Below are positions 13,605 to 55,672 of a stretch of DNA of 64,000 nt, piece after piece. The DNA comes from Stakelama flava (GTDB taxonomy: Bacteria > Pseudomonadota > Alphaproteobacteria > Sphingomonadales > Sphingomonadaceae). The notes beneath the pieces were generated by a model. The model made no database searches, was not told the origin of the DNA, and saw only the letters and a program-made list of their open reading frames with translations. The position numbers and the translations under genes were made by a program. The DNA is taken from assembly GCF_019351405.1 (NCBI RefSeq), contig NZ_JAHWZX010000001.1:248001-312000 (forward strand). Direction: 5' to 3'. Numbering within the stretch: the stretch's first letter is position 1; each line of letters begins with the position of its first letter.

Positions 13605-13744
13605 CGCTGCGGGTCTAGCCCAAGCAGGCGGGCGTGTCGAAGAGATCGGCACTGTGAAGCAGCGTCGCTCGCTCGCCAGTGCCGAACGCCTCCGCACCGC
13701 CAGGGCATATCGGCGTTGCAGCGGGACATTCAGCTTTTTCGAAA

Positions 13745-13840
13745 AGGTGGGAGCCGGAACGACCCGATACGAAATCGTTGCGGCTGCTTCCTTCCGGACC
13801 TGACCGGGTTGGCGACGGCACCGTCCGCCCGACTCCCGTC
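13745..13840 (-). ncRNA. ffs: Signal recognition particle 4.5S RNA
   Basis: RNA of the bacterial SRP that binds Ffh and targets membrane proteins. The minus strand carries the invariant apical hairpin GGTCAGGTCCGGAAGGAAGCAGCC in segments GGTCAGGTCC and GGAAGGAAGCAGCC. The distal stem closes through GGGAGTCGG (5', near 13837) and CCGGCTCCC (3', near 13749). Length is about 90-96 nt, normal for the small type. It lies upstream of dnaX and is followed by ACCTTTTC. Ends are set by the stem and may shift a few bases. Confidence 0.93.
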
Positions 13841-19367: not shown

Positions 19368-20249
19368 TCATCCCGTGAACAGCGCGCCCACCAGTTCGCC
19401 GACCTTGGCATGGACCGCGTTGGCCGCATTGTCGGGTGTATCGGGCGCCCATAAATAGCTGGCGATGATGATCGGGCGCTTGCCTTCGCCGGGCCAGGCG
19501 ATTGCAACATCGTTGAACCAGCCATCGCCGCTGGTGCCGGTCTTGTCGCCCACCTTCCAGTCGGCGGGAAGGCCTGCGCGCAGCCGGTCGCTGCCGGTGG
19601 TGCTGTCGACCAGCCATTCGCCCAGCATCCTGCGATTGTCCTCGGTCAGCGCATTGGTCAGGAGCAGATCGTTTACCAGCGTCGCCATGGCATAGGGCGT
19701 CGTCGCATCCTGCTCCTGCCCCGGACGAACGCGGTTCACCAACGGTTCGGGATGGTCGATATTGGTGACCGCATCGCCGACATCGCGCAGATAGCGCGTA
19801 ACGCCTCGCGGGCCGCCCACCTGCGGCAGCAAAAGGTTCGCGGCGCTGTTGTCGCTGACCGTAACTGCCGCCTTGGCCAGTTCCGCGATCGTCATGCTGC
19901 CCCTGGCAAGGTTCGCCTTCACGACGGGGGCGTAATCGAGCACATCGGCCTGTGTGATCCGCACCGATTTATTCAGATCGACATCGCCGCGCTCCGCCTT
20001 TGCCAGCACACAGGCAGCAAGCGGCAGCTTGAACGTCGAACACAGCGCGAAGCGTTCATCGGCGCGCCACAGCAGGCGCTGGCCGTTGCCGGTATTGAGC
20101 ACGGCAAGACCCAGCCTGCCCTGAACCGCATCCTCCAATTGTTCGAAGACCGAACCGCCCGCCGCCTGAAACGCGCGGGCGCTGCCGGTGGTCGCCGCGA
20201 CGCCCAGCGCAGCGGCAGCGGAAAGAATATCGCGGCGATTGAAATTCAT
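19368..20249 (-). CDS. Class A serine beta-lactamase
   Basis: A 293-residue periplasmic enzyme that hydrolyses beta-lactams. An N-terminal Tat-like signal (NRRDILSAAAALGVAATTGSARA) suggests export folded. Active-site motifs are complete: Ser71-Thr-Phe-Lys74 (Ambler S70xxK), Ser132-Asp-Asn134 (SDN130 loop), Glu168 and Asn172 (E166/N170) and KTGTSG. A Cys directly precedes the active serine, as in carbapenemases with a 69-238 disulfide, but the partner position is Ser here, so that bridge cannot form. Substrate range cannot be read from sequence. It lies 3 bases after the ferredoxin stop, with no nearby regulator such as AmpR. Confidence 0.92.
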   Translation of the reverse strand: MNFNRRDILSAAAALGVAATTGSARAFQAAGGSVFEQLEDAVQGRLGLAVLNTGNGQRLLWRADERFALCSTFKLPLAACVLAKAERGDVDLNKSVRITQADVLDYAPVVKANLARGSMTIAELAKAAVTVSDNSAANLLLPQVGGPRGVTRYLRDVGDAVTNIDHPEPLVNRVRPGQEQDATTPYAMATLVNDLLLTNALTEDNRRMLGEWLVDSTTGSDRLRAGLPADWKVGDKTGTSGDGWFNDVAIAWPGEGKRPIIIASYLWAPDTPDNAANAVHAKVGELVGALFTG

Positions 20250-24439: not shown

Positions 24440-25408
24440 TCAACGATCGCCGGCCAGCGCAGCGGAATAGGCATCGACATCGACATTGCCGCCGGACAGC
24501 ACCACCAGCATCCCCGGCTGCGGTGCGACCTTTCGCGCCAGCAGCGCGGCGAGCGCCACCGCGCCCCCCGGCTCCACCACCAGCCGCAGCTTTGTCGCCG
24601 CCCAGCGCTGGGCGGCGCGAACCTCCGCTTCGCTGACCGCGACCCCCTTCGCATCGCGCCGCGCCAGAACTTCGAAGGTGCGCTCGCTGACCCGTTTGGT
24701 CTGCAACGCATCGCAGGCGGTGGGCGGCGGATTGTCGCCAACCGGCTCGATCCACCCCGCCTCCAGGCTGCGACACATATCGTCCCAGCCTTCGGGTTCG
24801 ACCACGGTGATCGCCGCATCGGGCAGGCCAAGCGTCATCCCCGCCGCCAGGCCGCCGCCGCCGCACGGCACGACGAGATGCGACGGATCGGGCAGCCCTG
24901 CCTCCACCATCTGGGTCATCGCTTCGATCGCGGCGCTCCCCTGCCCCTCTATCACCCAGGGATCATCGAAGCTGGGCACCAGAATGGCGCCGCGCGCATG
25001 GGCAAGGTGCGCGGCGATCTTTTCGCGGCTTTCGCTGTCGCGGTCATAGGTCACGATCTCCGCCCCCAACGCCAGCGTCCCTTCGCGCTTCGATCGCGGC
25101 GCGTCGGCGGGCATCACGATCACCGCGGGCATGCCGAGCCGCTTTGCCGCCCAGGCGATGCCCTGCGCATGATTGCCGGACGAAAAGGCGACCACCCCCT
25201 TGTCACGCACATCGGGATCGATCGCGGTCAACCGGTGCCATGCGCCGCGCAGCTTGAACGCGCCCATGGGTTGCAGACATTCGGCCTTGAACGTTACGGC
25301 GACGCCCCCCACGTCGTGCACGTAAATAGGGGATGGCGGCAGAATCGCCGCCACTTTCGCCGCAGCATCGCGAACGCCTGCCCTGGTCGGTTGTCGCATT
25401 ATCGTCAC
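24440..25408 (-). CDS. Threonine/serine dehydratase, catabolic-like PLP enzyme
   Basis: A 322-residue fold-type II PLP enzyme that deaminates threonine (or serine) to the 2-oxo acid. The PLP lysine is Lys52 in MGAFKLRGA; SSGNHAQGIA is the substrate/carboxylate loop and PCGGGGLAAG the phosphate-binding loop. There is no C-terminal ACT-like regulatory domain, so it is not the feedback-controlled biosynthetic IlvA type. It is divergent from the ornithine decarboxylase leader. Serine racemase is a close relative and cannot be excluded. Confidence 0.86.
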   Translation of the reverse strand: MTIMRQPTRAGVRDAAAKVAAILPPSPIYVHDVGGVAVTFKAECLQPMGAFKLRGAWHRLTAIDPDVRDKGVVAFSSGNHAQGIAWAAKRLGMPAVIVMPADAPRSKREGTLALGAEIVTYDRDSESREKIAAHLAHARGAILVPSFDDPWVIEGQGSAAIEAMTQMVEAGLPDPSHLVVPCGGGGLAAGMTLGLPDAAITVVEPEGWDDMCRSLEAGWIEPVGDNPPPTACDALQTKRVSERTFEVLARRDAKGVAVSEAEVRAAQRWAATKLRLVVEPGGAVALAALLARKVAPQPGMLVVLSGGNVDVDAYSAALAGDR

Positions 25409-25460
25409 GTATTTCCCCAGTCTTGGAACGGTGCATCGCCGAAACGCTTTACATAGCAGA

Positions 25461-25550
25461 AGGTGGTCCCTATGTGGGCGCTCCGCTGCCCCAGGGACTT
25501 CCTACCGCAAGGCAGCTCTTATGTTGAACTACCCTGTGGAGGTCCCTTGA
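25461..25550 (+). promoter_or_regulatory. speF-type leader riboregulator of ornithine decarboxylase
   Basis: The leader holds mutually exclusive pairings. GGTCCCT (25465-25471) pairs with AGGGACT (25493-25499), closing a hairpin with an inner GGGC/GCCC stem (25476-25479 with 25488-25491). The same strand AGGGACTTCC (25493-25502) can instead form ten consecutive pairs, one of them G-U, with GGAGGTCCCT (25538-25547), which includes the ornithine decarboxylase Shine-Dalgarno GGAGG (25538-25542). One fold frees the ribosome site, the other hides it. From memory this matches the Rfam speF motif found upstream of alphaproteobacterial ornithine decarboxylases; a covariance search would settle it. 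The ligand is not shown by the sequence. Confidence 0.8.
25521..25550 (+). CDS. Nine-codon upstream ORF in the ornithine decarboxylase leader
   Basis: ATG 25521 to TGA 25548-25550 encodes MLNYPVEVP. AAGG at 25509-25512 stands 8 bases upstream as a possible ribosome site. The uORF runs through the sequestered Shine-Dalgarno region and stops one base before the TTG start of ornithine decarboxylase, so its translation could open the inhibitory helix or allow re-initiation. It is too short for coding statistics and could be chance. Confidence 0.35.
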   Translation: MLNYPVEVP

Positions 25551-25551
25551 A

Positions 25552-26766
25552 TTGGCCGAACATCATAGCGCGCTGGGGCTAGCAACCGCCCTTCGTCCGG
25601 TCCAGCCGGTAACCCTCGTCCGCCCCCATGCGGCGCGCAGGGCAGCTACATTCTTTACCGAGAAATTTCCCGGTCGCTGCATGTATGCGGTGAAGGCGAA
25701 CCCTTCGCCCGACCTGTTGCAGCTGCTGTGGGAATCGGGTGTCACCCATTACGACGTGGCGTCGATCGGTGAAGTGCGCCTCGTATCGCGTACACTTCCG
25801 CAAGCCACCTTGTGCTTCATGCACCCGGTCAAGGCGGAAGAGGCGATTGCAGAGGCCTATTTCACGCATGGCGTTCGCACCTTCAGCCTGGACACGATCG
25901 AGGAGCTGGAAAAGATCATGCGCGCCACGCGCGGCGCCGAAGACCTGACGCTGTGCGTCCGGCTTCGCGTATCGTCGGACTTGTCCAAGCTGAGCCTTGC
26001 CGCGAAGTTCGGTGCCGAACTCGACGATGTGAAGGAATTGCTCTTCGCCACGCGTCAGGCGGCGGACGCGCTCGGCATCTGCTTCCATGTCGGCAGCCAG
26101 GCGATGAGCCCCGACGCCTATGCCAATGCGATGGAAATCGTTCGCGCTGCGATTGTCGAGGCATCGGTCACGGTCGACGTGATCGATGTTGGCGGCGGAT
26201 TCCCCTCCACCTATCCCGGTATGGAGCCGCCGCCGCTGGAACGCTATTTCGACGCGATCCATCGCGCGTTCGAAAGCCTGCCGATTTCCTATTCGGCCGA
26301 GCTATGGGCCGAACCGGGTCGCGCGCTGTGCGCCGAATACAGCTCGCTGATCGTGCGGGTGGAAAAACGGCGCGGGACCGAACTGTATATCAATGACGGC
26401 GCGTATGGCGCGCTGTTCGACGCGGCGCATATGGGCTGGCGATTTCCGGTAAAGCGGCTTCGCGAGGTGCCGACCGCTTCGCCCTATGAAGCGTTCAGCT
26501 TTTACGGCCCAACCTGCGACGATATCGATCATATGGCAGGGCCCTTTTTGCTACCCGCTGATATCCAGACCGGCGATTATATCGAGATCGGGATGCTGGG
26601 GGCTTATGGCGCTGCGCTGCGCACCGCGTTCAACGGCTTCGGTTCCGACGAAACCCATATCGTCAATGACGAACCGATGGACACGCTGTATCTGGGCGAT
26701 ACGCATGAAAGCGAACCCGACCGGGTGGTGTCGCTGGACGAGCATCGCCGCAAGGCGGGTCAGTAA
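25552..26766 (+). CDS. Ornithine/lysine decarboxylase (type III PLP fold)
   Basis: The protein has 404 residues from TTG 25552, chosen because GGAGG lies 9 bases upstream and no ATG precedes the conserved core. Eukaryotic-like ornithine decarboxylase that makes putrescine: PLP lysine Lys48 in MYAVKANPSPD, the glycine loop IDVGGGFPSTYPG, WAEPGRALCAE, and the active-site Cys in FYGPTCDDID. It starts the polyamine module with the NspC-like and dehydrogenase genes nearby on the other strand. Expression is probably set by the speF-type leader and ends at a strong intrinsic terminator. Lysine as substrate is possible. Confidence 0.92.
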   Translation: MAEHHSALGLATALRPVQPVTLVRPHAARRAATFFTEKFPGRCMYAVKANPSPDLLQLLWESGVTHYDVASIGEVRLVSRTLPQATLCFMHPVKAEEAIAEAYFTHGVRTFSLDTIEELEKIMRATRGAEDLTLCVRLRVSSDLSKLSLAAKFGAELDDVKELLFATRQAADALGICFHVGSQAMSPDAYANAMEIVRAAIVEASVTVDVIDVGGGFPSTYPGMEPPPLERYFDAIHRAFESLPISYSAELWAEPGRALCAEYSSLIVRVEKRRGTELYINDGAYGALFDAAHMGWRFPVKRLREVPTASPYEAFSFYGPTCDDIDHMAGPFLLPADIQTGDYIEIGMLGAYGAALRTAFNGFGSDETHIVNDEPMDTLYLGDTHESEPDRVVSLDEHRRKAGQ

Positions 26767-26771
26767 GGACG

Positions 26772-26810
26772 AAAAAGGCCGGACGGGATTACCCGATCCG
26801 GCCTTTTTTT
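26772..26810 (+). terminator. Rho-independent terminator after ornithine decarboxylase
   Basis: The stem AAAGGCCGGA/TCCGGCCTTT encloses an inner CGGG/CCCG pair and is followed by a run of T residues. It begins 6 bases after the TAA stop. Because A residues precede the stem, it may also work for the convergent NspC gene ending at 26881. Confidence 0.93.
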
Positions 26811-26880
26811 GCCTGGAACCGTTTGCGCTCAGCAAAGCTTCTCAACCGCGCCCGACAAGAACGATGGGGAAGCGAACCGC

Positions 26881-28092
26881 TTAGCTCAACCGGTCGCGAA
26901 ACGTCGTCCAGTCGAATTGGCGGACGACCTCCAGACTGTCGTCGCGGCTGTCCCATATCGCGATTGCGGGCAGCGACACGCCGTTGAAGGTGGTTGTCTT
27001 CACCATCGAATAATGCGCCTGATCGAGGAACGCGAAGCGATCGCCCGGTTCGGGACGTGACGCGAAGCGATAATCCCCGATCTCATCCCCGGCGAGACAG
27101 GACGGGCCGCCGAGCCGAACGGTCACTCCGCCTTCGGCCGGTTCACCCAGCATCGCGGGACGGTACGGCGCCTCGATCACGTCGGGCATATGGCAGGTCG
27201 CAGAAATGTCGACGATCGCCACCGGCATGCCGTTGTCGAATATGTCGACGAACTCGCCGACCAATATGCCGGCATCAAGCGCGATCGCCTCACCGGGTTC
27301 GAGCATCACCTCGCACCCGGTTTCCTCGCGCACCTGCCGAATGAACGCAATCAGATCGTCGCGCTGATAATCGAGACGCGTGATGTGATGCCCGCCGCCG
27401 AAATTGATCCATTTAAGCTGCGCGAAATAAGGTGCGAGCCGCGGTTTCAGCGCTTCCCAGGTACGGCGCAGCGGCGGGAAATCCTGTTCGCACAGCGTAT
27501 GGATGTGAACGCCGTCGATCCCGTCCAGATGTTCGGGCAGAAGCTGATCGACCGGAAAGCCGAGCCGCGAATGGGGTCGCGCAGGATCATATTTCGACAC
27601 CTCGCCCTCGCTGTGCATCGGGTTGAGGCGAAGCCCCATATCGAACGTCTCGCCTGTTTCGCGCGCCGCTTGTGCCGCGCCGCGCATCGCCGCCGCCTGC
27701 CCCGGCGAATTGAAGATGACATGATCGGACAGGCGGAACACTTCCGCCATGTCGGCGTCCTTATACCCGGCGCAAAAGGTCGCGACTTCGCCGGTATAGC
27801 ACTCGGCGGCGAGCCGCGCTTCCCACAGGCCTGATGTCGCGGCGCCGTCGAGATAGCGCCCGACCAGAGGCCCAAGCGACCACATCGAAAAGGCTTTGAG
27901 CGCGAGCAAAATCTTGCACCCCGCCCGGTCACGCACATCGGCAAGCACTTGCAGATTTGCCTCAACCGCCGCGCGATCGACTACGAAACAGGGCGATGGA
28001 ACGCGCGACAGATCGAAATCGGTGAATGCGCCCGGACCGCCGGATTTGGTGGTCATGGGGGTCTGGGGTTCGGGATCTGAATGCTTGGTCAT
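26881..28092 (-). CDS. nspC: Carboxynorspermidine decarboxylase
   Basis: A 403-residue fold-type III PLP decarboxylase that removes CO2 from carboxy(nor)spermidine, the last step of the aspartate-semialdehyde route to triamines. The PLP lysine is Lys66 in LLALKAFSMW; GVHIHTLCEQ, NFGGGHHITR and LEPGEAIALDAG are characteristic of NspC rather than LysA. The C-terminal WDSRDDSLEVVRQFD is also typical. ATG 28057 (MTTKSGGPG) is an alternative start twelve codons in. The dehydrogenase that makes its substrate lies upstream on the same strand, separated by a REP element. Confidence 0.93.
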   Translation of the reverse strand: MTKHSDPEPQTPMTTKSGGPGAFTDFDLSRVPSPCFVVDRAAVEANLQVLADVRDRAGCKILLALKAFSMWSLGPLVGRYLDGAATSGLWEARLAAECYTGEVATFCAGYKDADMAEVFRLSDHVIFNSPGQAAAMRGAAQAARETGETFDMGLRLNPMHSEGEVSKYDPARPHSRLGFPVDQLLPEHLDGIDGVHIHTLCEQDFPPLRRTWEALKPRLAPYFAQLKWINFGGGHHITRLDYQRDDLIAFIRQVREETGCEVMLEPGEAIALDAGILVGEFVDIFDNGMPVAIVDISATCHMPDVIEAPYRPAMLGEPAEGGVTVRLGGPSCLAGDEIGDYRFASRPEPGDRFAFLDQAHYSMVKTTTFNGVSLPAIAIWDSRDDSLEVVRQFDWTTFRDRLS

Positions 28093-28132
28093 TTCCTATT
28101 CCTCACAATCAAACCCATTCGCACCCGTCCGT

Positions 28133-28202
28133 GCTGAGCTTGTCGAAGCACCGTTCTTCTTAACGCCGGGCGGAAGAAGAACAGCCCTTCGACAGGCTCA
28201 GG
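28133..28202. repeat. REP-type palindromic element, copy 2
   Basis: TGAGCTTGTCGAAG (28135-28148) and CTTCGACAGGCTCA (28187-28200) form the outer stem with one mismatch. GTTCTTCTT and GAAGAAGAAC form an inner stem. It is the same family as the element at 19279-19352 and lies between the two carboxynorspermidine genes. Confidence 0.85.
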
Positions 28203-28259
28203 GCAAACGGTGCGCAGATATCGAGCCGCTGGCGGCACGGGCCTGCGTCGGGGCGCGGA

Positions 28260-29465
28260 TCAGAAACGCAGCGGTTCGGCGAGTTCGCGTACCTGCCAGG
28301 GCAGGCCATGCTGGTTGAGCATGTCCATGAACGGATCGGGATCGAGCTGTTCCATGTTGAACACACCCTCCCCCTTCCACGTGCCGTTCAGCATCAGCGC
28401 GGCGCCGATCATTGCAGGCACGCCGGTGGTGTAGCTTACCGCCTGATTGCCGGTTTCCTCGAACGCGGCTTCGTGATCGCACACATTGTAGATGCGCACG
28501 GTTTTCGCCTCACCGTCCTTGGTGCCGGTGGCGATGTCGCCGATATTGGTCTTGCCCTTGGTCGTCTGGCCCAGATCGCTGGGTTCAGGCAGCACCGCTT
28601 TCAGGAACTGAAGCGGGATGATCTCGACGCCGTTATACATGACCGGATCGATCCGGGTCATGCCGACATTCTGAAGCACGTCGAGATAGCGCAGATATTG
28701 ATCGCCGAAGGTCATCCAGAAGCGGATGCGCTTGATGCCCGGAATGTGTTTGGCCAGGCTTTCCAGTTCCTCATGATACATGAGGTACATGTTCTTCGTG
28801 CCGACTTCCTCGAAATTATAAACCTGCCGCGTCGAAAGCGCGGGCGTTTCGATCCATTCGCCATTTTCGTAATGGCGCGCGGGCGCGGTGATTTCGCGGA
28901 TGTTGATTTCGGGATTGAAATTGGTCGCGAAATGCTGGCCGTGATCGCCGCCATTGCAATCGAGAATGTCGAGCGTGTCGATCGTGTCGAGGTGATGTTT
29001 CTTCAAATATGCGGCGAACACGCTGGTGACGCCCGGATCGAAACCCGAGCCGAGCAGCGCCATCAGTCCCGCTTCCTTGAAACGTTCCTGATATTCCCAT
29101 TGCCAGCGATATTCGAACTTCGCCTCGTCGCGCGGTTCGTAATTTGCGGTGTCCAGATAATGCACACCGGCCTTCAGGCAGGCGTCCATGATCGGCAGGT
29201 CCTGATAGGGCAGCGCGAGATTGACGACCAGCGCGGGCTTCACCTGCTCGATCAGCCTGACCGTCGCATCGACATCGTCGGCGTCCACCTGAGCCGTATC
29301 GATGTCGGCGCCGAACCGCTGCTTCACCGATGCGGCGATCGCATCGCATTTGAACCGGCGTCGGCTGGCCAACGTGATCTTCCCGAACAGTTGCGGGTTC
29401 TTCGCCATCTTGTGAACCGCGACCGACGAAACGCCGCCTGCACCGATTACGAGAACGTCCTTCAC
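28260..29465 (-). CDS. Carboxynorspermidine/saccharopine dehydrogenase-type synthase
   Basis: The protein has 401 residues from GTG 29465 (VKDVLVIGAGGV), with AAAGG about 10 bases upstream. The N-terminal Rossmann motif GAGGVSSVAVHKMAK binds NADPH; NLALPYQDLPIMDACLKAG and LGSGFDPGVTSVFAAY are signatures of carboxynorspermidine dehydrogenase. It condenses a diamine with aspartate semialdehyde and reduces the product to carboxy(nor)spermidine, which NspC then decarboxylates. Saccharopine reductase (lysine metabolism) is the close alternative; the NspC neighbour argues for polyamines. Confidence 0.9.
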   Translation of the reverse strand: MKDVLVIGAGGVSSVAVHKMAKNPQLFGKITLASRRRFKCDAIAASVKQRFGADIDTAQVDADDVDATVRLIEQVKPALVVNLALPYQDLPIMDACLKAGVHYLDTANYEPRDEAKFEYRWQWEYQERFKEAGLMALLGSGFDPGVTSVFAAYLKKHHLDTIDTLDILDCNGGDHGQHFATNFNPEINIREITAPARHYENGEWIETPALSTRQVYNFEEVGTKNMYLMYHEELESLAKHIPGIKRIRFWMTFGDQYLRYLDVLQNVGMTRIDPVMYNGVEIIPLQFLKAVLPEPSDLGQTTKGKTNIGDIATGTKDGEAKTVRIYNVCDHEAAFEETGNQAVSYTTGVPAMIGAALMLNGTWKGEGVFNMEQLDPDPFMDMLNQHGLPWQVRELAEPLRF

Positions 29466-29601
29466 GCCATATGCCTTTCGGTAAATTCGAACAGGCGCCG
29501 GACATAGCGATGCACAGGGGCGATGCAAGCCGCCGCCCCTCGACAAAGCACCGCCCGGTGGCGCAAAGAGACGCGCAACCAAGCGAAGGACGGGGACGAA
29601 T

Positions 29602-55595: not shown

Positions 55596-55672
55596 TGGTA
55601 GCGGAGGAGGGACTTGAACCCCCGACACCCGGATTATGATTCCGGTGCTCTAACCAGCTGAGCTACTCCGCC
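55596..55672 (-). tRNA. Elongator tRNA-Met (CAT anticodon)
   Basis: A 77-nt cloverleaf including an encoded 3' CCA. Acceptor stem GGCGGAG pairs with CTCCGCT (with one G-U). The D arm is GCTCAGCTGGTTAGAGC, the anticodon arm CCGGA-ATCATAA-TCCGG places CAT in the loop, and the T arm has GGTTCAAGTCC. The acceptor differs from initiator tRNAs, so I read it as elongator Met. A tRNA-Ile modified at CAU is the alternative. Confidence 0.93.

Follow-up and report, generated by a model that had tools for sequence, protein, structure and literature searches.

The ornithine decarboxylase (ODC) gene in the window, by which we mean the whole 64,000-nucleotide stretch of Stakelama flava DNA analysed here, is preceded by a leader that is almost certainly an odc1-motif (uORF-25-1) RNA, a cis-regulatory element of ODC, as judged by the published text description of that motif. 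An odc1 leader with a pseudoknot covering the Shine-Dalgarno sequence, two start codons and a mini-ORF is, in our view with good confidence, the best overall explanation of the region. The motif has already been described (Brewer et al. 2021, PMC8632094, in its section on odc1), and the window copy is a further member. The label of the leader is thereby corrected from speF, as given in the initial annotation, to odc1. The features discussed below are the following.

25448-25474, + strand: putative promoter, with a -35 element TTTACA (25448-25453), a 15-base spacer and a -10 element CCTATG (25469-25474); spacing kept in the genus
25485-25490, + strand: predicted 5' arm of helix S1, GCUGCC, pairing with 25511-25516
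25491-25493, + strand: loop L1, CCA (CCAU in most relatives), from the alignment of leaders
25494-25502, + strand: predicted 5' arm of helix P2, GGGACUUCC, the anti-Shine-Dalgarno strand; 9/9 core pairs in 57/57 leaders, and covariation in the family
25503-25510, + strand: loop L2, UACCGCAA (consensus AACCGCAA); CCGCAA is invariant in 42 and in 90 aligned leaders
25511-25516, + strand: predicted 3' arm of S1, GGCAGC; covariation with the 5' arm
25517-25537, + strand: loop L3; a small hairpin P3 is frequent in relatives, none being convincing in the window
25538-25546, + strand: predicted 3' arm of P2, GGAGGUCCC, which holds the Shine-Dalgarno GGAGG (25538-25542); from pairing counts
25547-25582, + strand: mini-ORF (uORF) with a TTG start, 11 codons (MNWPNIIARWG) and the stop TAG at 25580-25582; from conservation of the codon-12 stop
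25552-26766, + strand: ornithine decarboxylase-type gene with a TTG start (PF02784, PF00278); frame kept in 60/60 genus loci
1049-1411, - strand: RNase P RNA (Rfam)
13743-13840, - strand: small SRP RNA (Rfam)
55599-55672, - strand: tRNA (Rfam)

Identity and distribution of the leader

By its domains, the gene at 25552-26766 encodes an ornithine/diaminopimelate-type decarboxylase, no NCBIfam equivalog cut-off being reached. The TTG at 25552, already named as its start in the initial annotation, is in frame and open in 60/60 genus loci despite nine different N-terminal lengths among the 60 genus ODC loci, and it is therefore taken as the true ODC start. On the opposite strand, 26881-29507 holds relatives of carboxynorspermidine decarboxylase (nspC) and carboxynorspermidine synthase, with scores below the equivalog cut-offs; together with the ODC gene, these convergent genes are likely a polyamine gene cluster, and since they adjoin the ODC gene, a polyamine role would be its natural reading. 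Elsewhere in the window, the ORF at 19368-20249 on the - strand has STFK and SDN motifs and, by eye, is presumably class A beta-lactamase-like.

The text of PMC8632094 describes odc1 (uORF-25-1) from 272 alphaproteobacterial examples as an extended stem with the ribosome-binding site in its right shoulder, a pseudoknot to the 5' end, and ODC downstream; two UUG codons are separated by two bases, a UUG being always present, and the uORF peptide has an unvarying length of 11 amino acids. Each of these described features can be recognized in the window leader: the stem with the ribosome-binding site in its 3' arm (P1 of that paper, P2 here), the pseudoknot from the 5' end to the loop (our S1), UUG-NN-UUG (TTG 25547 and TTG 25552), the overlapping 11-codon uORF (25547-25582), and a downstream ODC, the gene type being predicted from PF02784/PF00278. 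The window copy is thus a plain odc1 member that deviates slightly from what is usual in the genus (CAGGGAC for CAUGGGAC, CCU..GUGG for CCAA..UUGG, and no P3). Searches of the literature on the odc1 motif and on ODC/Sphingomonas/uORF found no description besides PMC8632094.

The element is strongly conserved. The initial annotation had rightly called it a cis-acting leader of ODC, and had placed it in the speF family. The speF motif (RF00518; Corbino et al. 2005, PMC1273637) is, in the passage describing it, likewise an ODC leader of alphaproteobacteria; its sequence and architecture differ from those of the window leader, which its covariance model does not match. Within 25380-25640, RF00518 matched nothing at a threshold as loose as E <= 10. 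It was also absent from the complete genome, in a search in which 14 control genomes were equally silent, so that this genome-wide silence comes without a positive control. The same model does find speF in 4/142 class genomes, with sequences unlike the window leader. In favour of a riboswitch-like speF element stands the same group of downstream enzymes in alphaproteobacteria (COG0019/ODC, according to the speF passage in PMC1273637); a position upstream of an ODC-type (COG0019) gene is indeed found here and is insufficient by itself. As far as the Rfam model goes, a speF identity is refuted, and we reject it as vanishingly improbable.

No other Rfam family was recognized either. With Rfam 15, 25380-25640 had no match up to E = 10; the whole window at gathering scores yielded the RNase P RNA, the SRP RNA and one tRNA only, and four further members of the family that were searched were, like the window leader, matched by no Rfam model. 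The SAM-II and preQ1-II types of riboswitch share a compact pseudoknot near the transcript start, but the window leader has no Rfam match to either family and no known ligand. In the speFL/speF leader of Salmonella and E. coli, a small upstream ORF controls an ODC gene, as is proposed for the window; that uORF is located entirely before the gene, whereas the window uORF overlaps the ODC start. A scan of 25300-26900 reported no terminator-like site on the + strand.

Of the 61 genomes in the genus sample, 60 have the ODC protein, and 60/60 genus leaders carry the same element, one of them (L014) without the 5' arm. A covariance model, R1, was built on 42 of the genus leaders. In the genome of the window, the leader is the sole strong match of R1 (E 6e-20; next 1.5). 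Among 296 order genomes, 196 match, one each, in 44 genera that all belong to the window's own family; at least one of these matches is false, because L157, with E <= 0.01 in the order search, reads as no ODC leader. R1 missed 17 genomes of the family; once the filters were relaxed, the leaders of eight of these could be retrieved and read, the other nine being unread or without a credible match. In the class sample, searched with stricter filters, R1 gave no credible match beyond the family (best E 0.13), a search that would probably also miss the members of family f149 described below.

Predicted pseudoknot and putative promoter

The pairing of S1 and P2 was counted in anchored leaders, as the MAFFT alignment A2 misregisters G runs of three and four. 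Nine of the 155 anchored family leaders could not be registered (L014, L146, L150, L155, L158, L162, L164, L166 and L169), and 128 distinct leaders were left, from more than 30 genera by a hand count. In S1 (GCUGCC/GGCAGC), 768/768 cells are paired and six two-sided changes occur, including U-A to A-U, C-G to U-A and G-C to U-G; neither value was reached in 500 shuffles, it being understood that the registration pattern C[AT]GC[CT] versus [GA][GC]C[ATG]G fixes pairs 2 and 4 and leaves only pairs 1, 3 and 6 to vary. Such exchanges can be seen directly in L133 and L147 (CAGCC/GGCUG) and in L145 (CUGCU/AGCAG). In P2, pairs 1-9 are formed in 1132/1152 cells with eight two-sided changes, which 1/500 shuffles reaches, a count biased by the registration having required GGGAC (pairs 1-5). 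Pair 6 is unpaired in 6/128 distinct registered leaders. Pairs 10-12 are formed in 231/384 cells (shuffle mean 200.6), pair 12 being mostly lost. In L156, L160, L163 and L165, P2 scarcely exceeds GGGAC/GUCCC, so that the Shine-Dalgarno itself is hardly paired there.

Both S1 and P2 are thus supported by sequence comparison. Since the strands of S1 enclose the 5' strand of P2, and the 3' strand of P2 lies downstream, the two helices would form an H-type pseudoknot over the Shine-Dalgarno, and we consider such a covering pseudoknot highly probable. As side observations made by eye, extra small hairpins are present in L1 of L141, L147, L162, L164 and L168 (in L2 of L161), and S1 is apparently wholly different in L168.

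The stretches GGTCCCT (25465-25471), AGGGACTTCC (25493-25502), GGAGGTCCCT (25538-25547) and TTG (25552), from which the initial annotation had deduced a switch, are present where it placed them. Its proposal that the AGGGACTTCC strand can mask the Shine-Dalgarno holds: the helix consists of nine core pairs (one of them G-U) plus A25493-U25547, and the nine core positions are paired in 57/57 distinct genus leaders. Its upstream partner GGTCCCT fared differently. A TTTAC box, 15 bases and a TA-containing -10 element are found with the same spacing in 59/59 genus leaders printed (L014, without the 5' arm, was skipped), in an arrangement that lies 36-39 bases before CGCUG. The position of this putative promoter is supported by the comparison of sequences, although a generic sigma-70 scan reported no promoter-like site at 25448-25474. 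Because of this conserved promoter-like 5' part, the RNA should begin just before the element, with a predicted transcription start near 25480-25484, a few bases upstream of it. GGTCCCT comprises the last four bases of the -35/-10 spacer and the first three of the -10 stretch; lying between the two boxes, it is probably not transcribed. Many of the genus promoter spacers (25454-25468 in the window, and equivalents) carry GGGGGTCC-like runs that resemble the Shine-Dalgarno arm.

That AGGGACTTCC would switch between the upstream GGTCCCT and the Shine-Dalgarno strand in two mutually exclusive states is, accordingly, very improbable. Both complementarities exist in the window, and the upstream helix is part of the minimum free energy (MFE) structure when the RNA is made to start at 25455 (z = -0.12). 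However, the upstream arm belongs to the putative promoter, and its complete pairing in the same register is seen in 1/57 distinct genus leaders, namely the window itself, and the upstream helix was rejected on these two grounds. A helix as long as that of the window, between the upstream 39 bases and AGGGACTTCC, arises in 14% of shuffles; across the 57 leaders, the longest upstream helix has a mean of 5.67 versus 5.03 in shuffles, a slight excess that we take as an effect of composition. Folding from the predicted start, 25482, gives the Shine-Dalgarno helix with z = -1.32, 16/200 shuffles being as good, and the structural evidence is comparative, not energetic. Measured against the refuting conditions named in the initial annotation, speF fails; covariation supports the helix on the Shine-Dalgarno side and does not support the upstream helix.

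Another alternative partner concerns S1, as GCUGCCCCA (25485-25493) might pair either within S1 or with UGGGGCUAGC in the ODC coding region (25574-25583), as a switch at the level of the genus. This long-range pairing is formed in 375/378 cells of 42 genus leaders, belongs to the MFE structure of the predicted transcript, and was built into model R1, before it was seen not to be kept in many genera. In many other genera it is lost, the segment reading CUGGCUGUAG or similar, and the conservation of 25574-25583 is also explained by the uORF stop together with the ODC residues. We consider such a switch improbable, and retain S1 as the partner of GCUGCCCCA.

Double start and mini-ORF

A second TTG lies five bases ahead of the one that starts ODC; the ORF read from it has 11 codons and overlaps ODC codons 1-11. 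The conservation of this uORF was counted in the 155 anchored family leaders, which include genomes fetched twice and contain 116 distinct overlaps; the count omits L002, L062-L069 and L157, and L149, L159, L161 and L168 could not be anchored. The start codon is TTG in 152 leaders, GTG in two and ATG in one. A stop at codon 12 is present in 155/155 (TAG in 146, TGA in five and TAA in two, plus L117 and L135, which have an additional earlier stop at codon 10). Among the distinct overlaps, the codon-12 stop is found in 116/116, where the ODC residues and the codon usage elsewhere in the gene would predict 6.8. Three of the four unanchored leaders keep it as well; the fourth, L159, combines a start spacing of 4 with a uORF of 10 codons. 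Comparison thus supports selection on the position of the uORF stop. In contrast, uORF codons 4-11 are no better conserved than the overlapped ODC frame (amino acid entropy 1.77 versus 1.66). The GTG and ATG starts, the spacing of 4 in L159 and the extra codon-10 stops go beyond the odc1 text of PMC8632094.

According to the reporter section of the same paper, both starts of a relative from S. echinoides are used in E. coli, that of the uORF about 3-fold more strongly; expression of the main ORF is lost with each of three changes close to the pseudoknot, of which two (M4 and M5) scarcely alter the uORF (PMC8632094). Conserved bases in this region are therefore needed in that relative.

Two further arrangements of reading frames were considered and set aside. 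An upstream uORF ending at the TGA at 25548-25550 (for example from ATG 25521) is open in the window, and it was dropped because a stop interrupts it in L112, the only relative followed by eye. Frameshifting from the uORF into ODC was rejected since there is no slippery site, codon 11 being variable.

A fixed stop might also indicate an arrest peptide. In the SpeFL and AMD1 uORFs, the ribosome pauses at the stop in response to ornithine or polyamine, and a comparable pause at the mini-ORF stop could block ODC initiation 28-30 bases upstream. The stop position fixed in all of the distinct anchored overlaps would agree with this, as would the 29/29 registered f149 leaders of another order, which stop at codon 12 or 14. 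Arrest peptides are not known to vary widely in their last residues; here, however, these residues do (RWG, HWL, PRL, PST, RWS), a codon-10 stop has been gained in 2/155 leaders, and L159 has only 10 codons. We therefore regard arrest as unlikely, and favour a mini-ORF of fixed length that competes with ODC for initiation.

Proposed control and relatives in another order

The following sequence of events is proposed. Transcription would begin a few bases 5' of the odc1 element, and the 5' end of the RNA would fold into an H-type pseudoknot consisting of the S1 hairpin (GCUGCC/GGCAGC), whose loop strand GGGACUUCC would pair downstream with GGAGGUCCC as P2; the ribosome-binding site would thereby be covered, as the comparison of leaders suggests. 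A single ribosome-binding site would serve two TTG starts five bases apart, the first leading into the 11-codon ORF, with its stop 28-30 bases inside ODC, and the second into ODC. Opening or rearrangement of the pseudoknot may decide both the loading of the ribosome and which start is taken, so that the mini-ORF would be a dead end of fixed length in competition with ODC; both suggestions are consistent with the reporter data as given in PMC8632094. We think it reasonably likely that the choice of start site is the regulated step.

As to the signal, the gene itself suggests that feedback by the pathway, through polyamine or ornithine, would be the most likely. That one of these is the direct ligand is likewise deduced from the gene, and we put it forward as a tentative possibility. 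Autoregulation by a protein or a base-pairing sRNA acting on the pseudoknot, with no small-molecule ligand, is doubtful: the passage on speF, a different RNA, in PMC1273637 reports no binding of ornithine, putrescine or spermidine, which speaks for a trans-acting factor, but we know of no candidate factor. Control by start-site choice, with pathway feedback, is the reading retained here.

The analysis was extended to loci of other orders. Of the 39 genomes of family f149 with a match, 32 leaders were examined, and 29 of these were registered by a pattern that demanded an ATG start and not a stop. Without exception, these 29 fall into two classes: the stop is codon 12 in 15 leaders (14 of them distinct, versus 0.45 expected) and codon 14 in the other 14 (12 distinct, versus 0.38); of the unregistered L283, L288 and L290, the first two show 11-codon uORFs. 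The double starts of this family are ATG-NN-GTG/ATG (L201-L204, L208, L210, L218, L223, L224, L230, L238 and L270-L290). In the 13-codon group, CCAUGGRAC..CGCAA of the odc1 core is retained and S1 is a different one, CGYCAWUC/GAWUGGCG, in which 8/8 positions are paired in 14/14 leaders with one compensatory position, the arms being partly fixed by the pattern; in its P2, GGRACCUC/GAGGUUCC, every position is paired in 13/14. The other f149 leaders have 11 codons behind an unlike leader. Searched against 70 sister-order loci, R1 gave eight matches, of which the five best (E 0.012-0.17) are the five members of the 13-codon group in the sample first examined, weak on their own but rightly placed. 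With their ATG starts, different S1, 13 codons and varied peptide length, these members from another order differ from the odc1 text of PMC8632094.

With patterns written after the sequences had been seen, 17/17 leaders of f63, 11/11 of f149, 8/10 of f148, 9/16 of f146 and 1/16 of f147 have another start codon five bases ahead of that of ODC. The double start alone proves little, because NTG-NN-NTG by itself, in frame with ODC and close to its start, occurs in 8/26 class loci (L170-L195), in some cases far from any likely start; a uORF of constant length is the more telling sign. The uORFs of f63, f148 and f146 have 17-48 codons, and their leaders share other conserved blocks. In the sister-order families f63, f146, f147 and f148 (among L170 and L205-L269), many ODC leaders have conserved blocks in common ahead of the start, such as CTAACGCC and CTGGGTTTAACAA-like stretches, and are probably other structured leaders. 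At gathering scores, Rfam matched none of 11 sister-order leaders (L205, L214, L216, L228, L231, L237, L241, L249, L251, L252 and L257). A P2 helix for f148 (GNGAC/GUCNC) was rejected, as by eye the varying position is paired in 3/8 sequences.

The conserved device may perhaps be the start-codon pair with a mini-ORF of fixed length rather than any single RNA fold, as part of a wider alphaproteobacterial control of ODC in which the ribosome terminating on the mini-ORF, at a set distance within ODC, would gate the second start; we offer this with considerable reserve. To the published section on odc1, the present analysis adds counted covariation in both helices (S1 and P2), a conserved putative promoter that would define where the RNA begins, and a mini-ORF stop whose position is maintained although TAG, TGA and TAA all occur there. 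To judge from the leaders of the second order, the double start and a mini-ORF of constant length may outlast the RNA that surrounds them, and the existence of clades with uORFs of 11, 13 or more codons makes the role of the mini-ORF testable by comparison.
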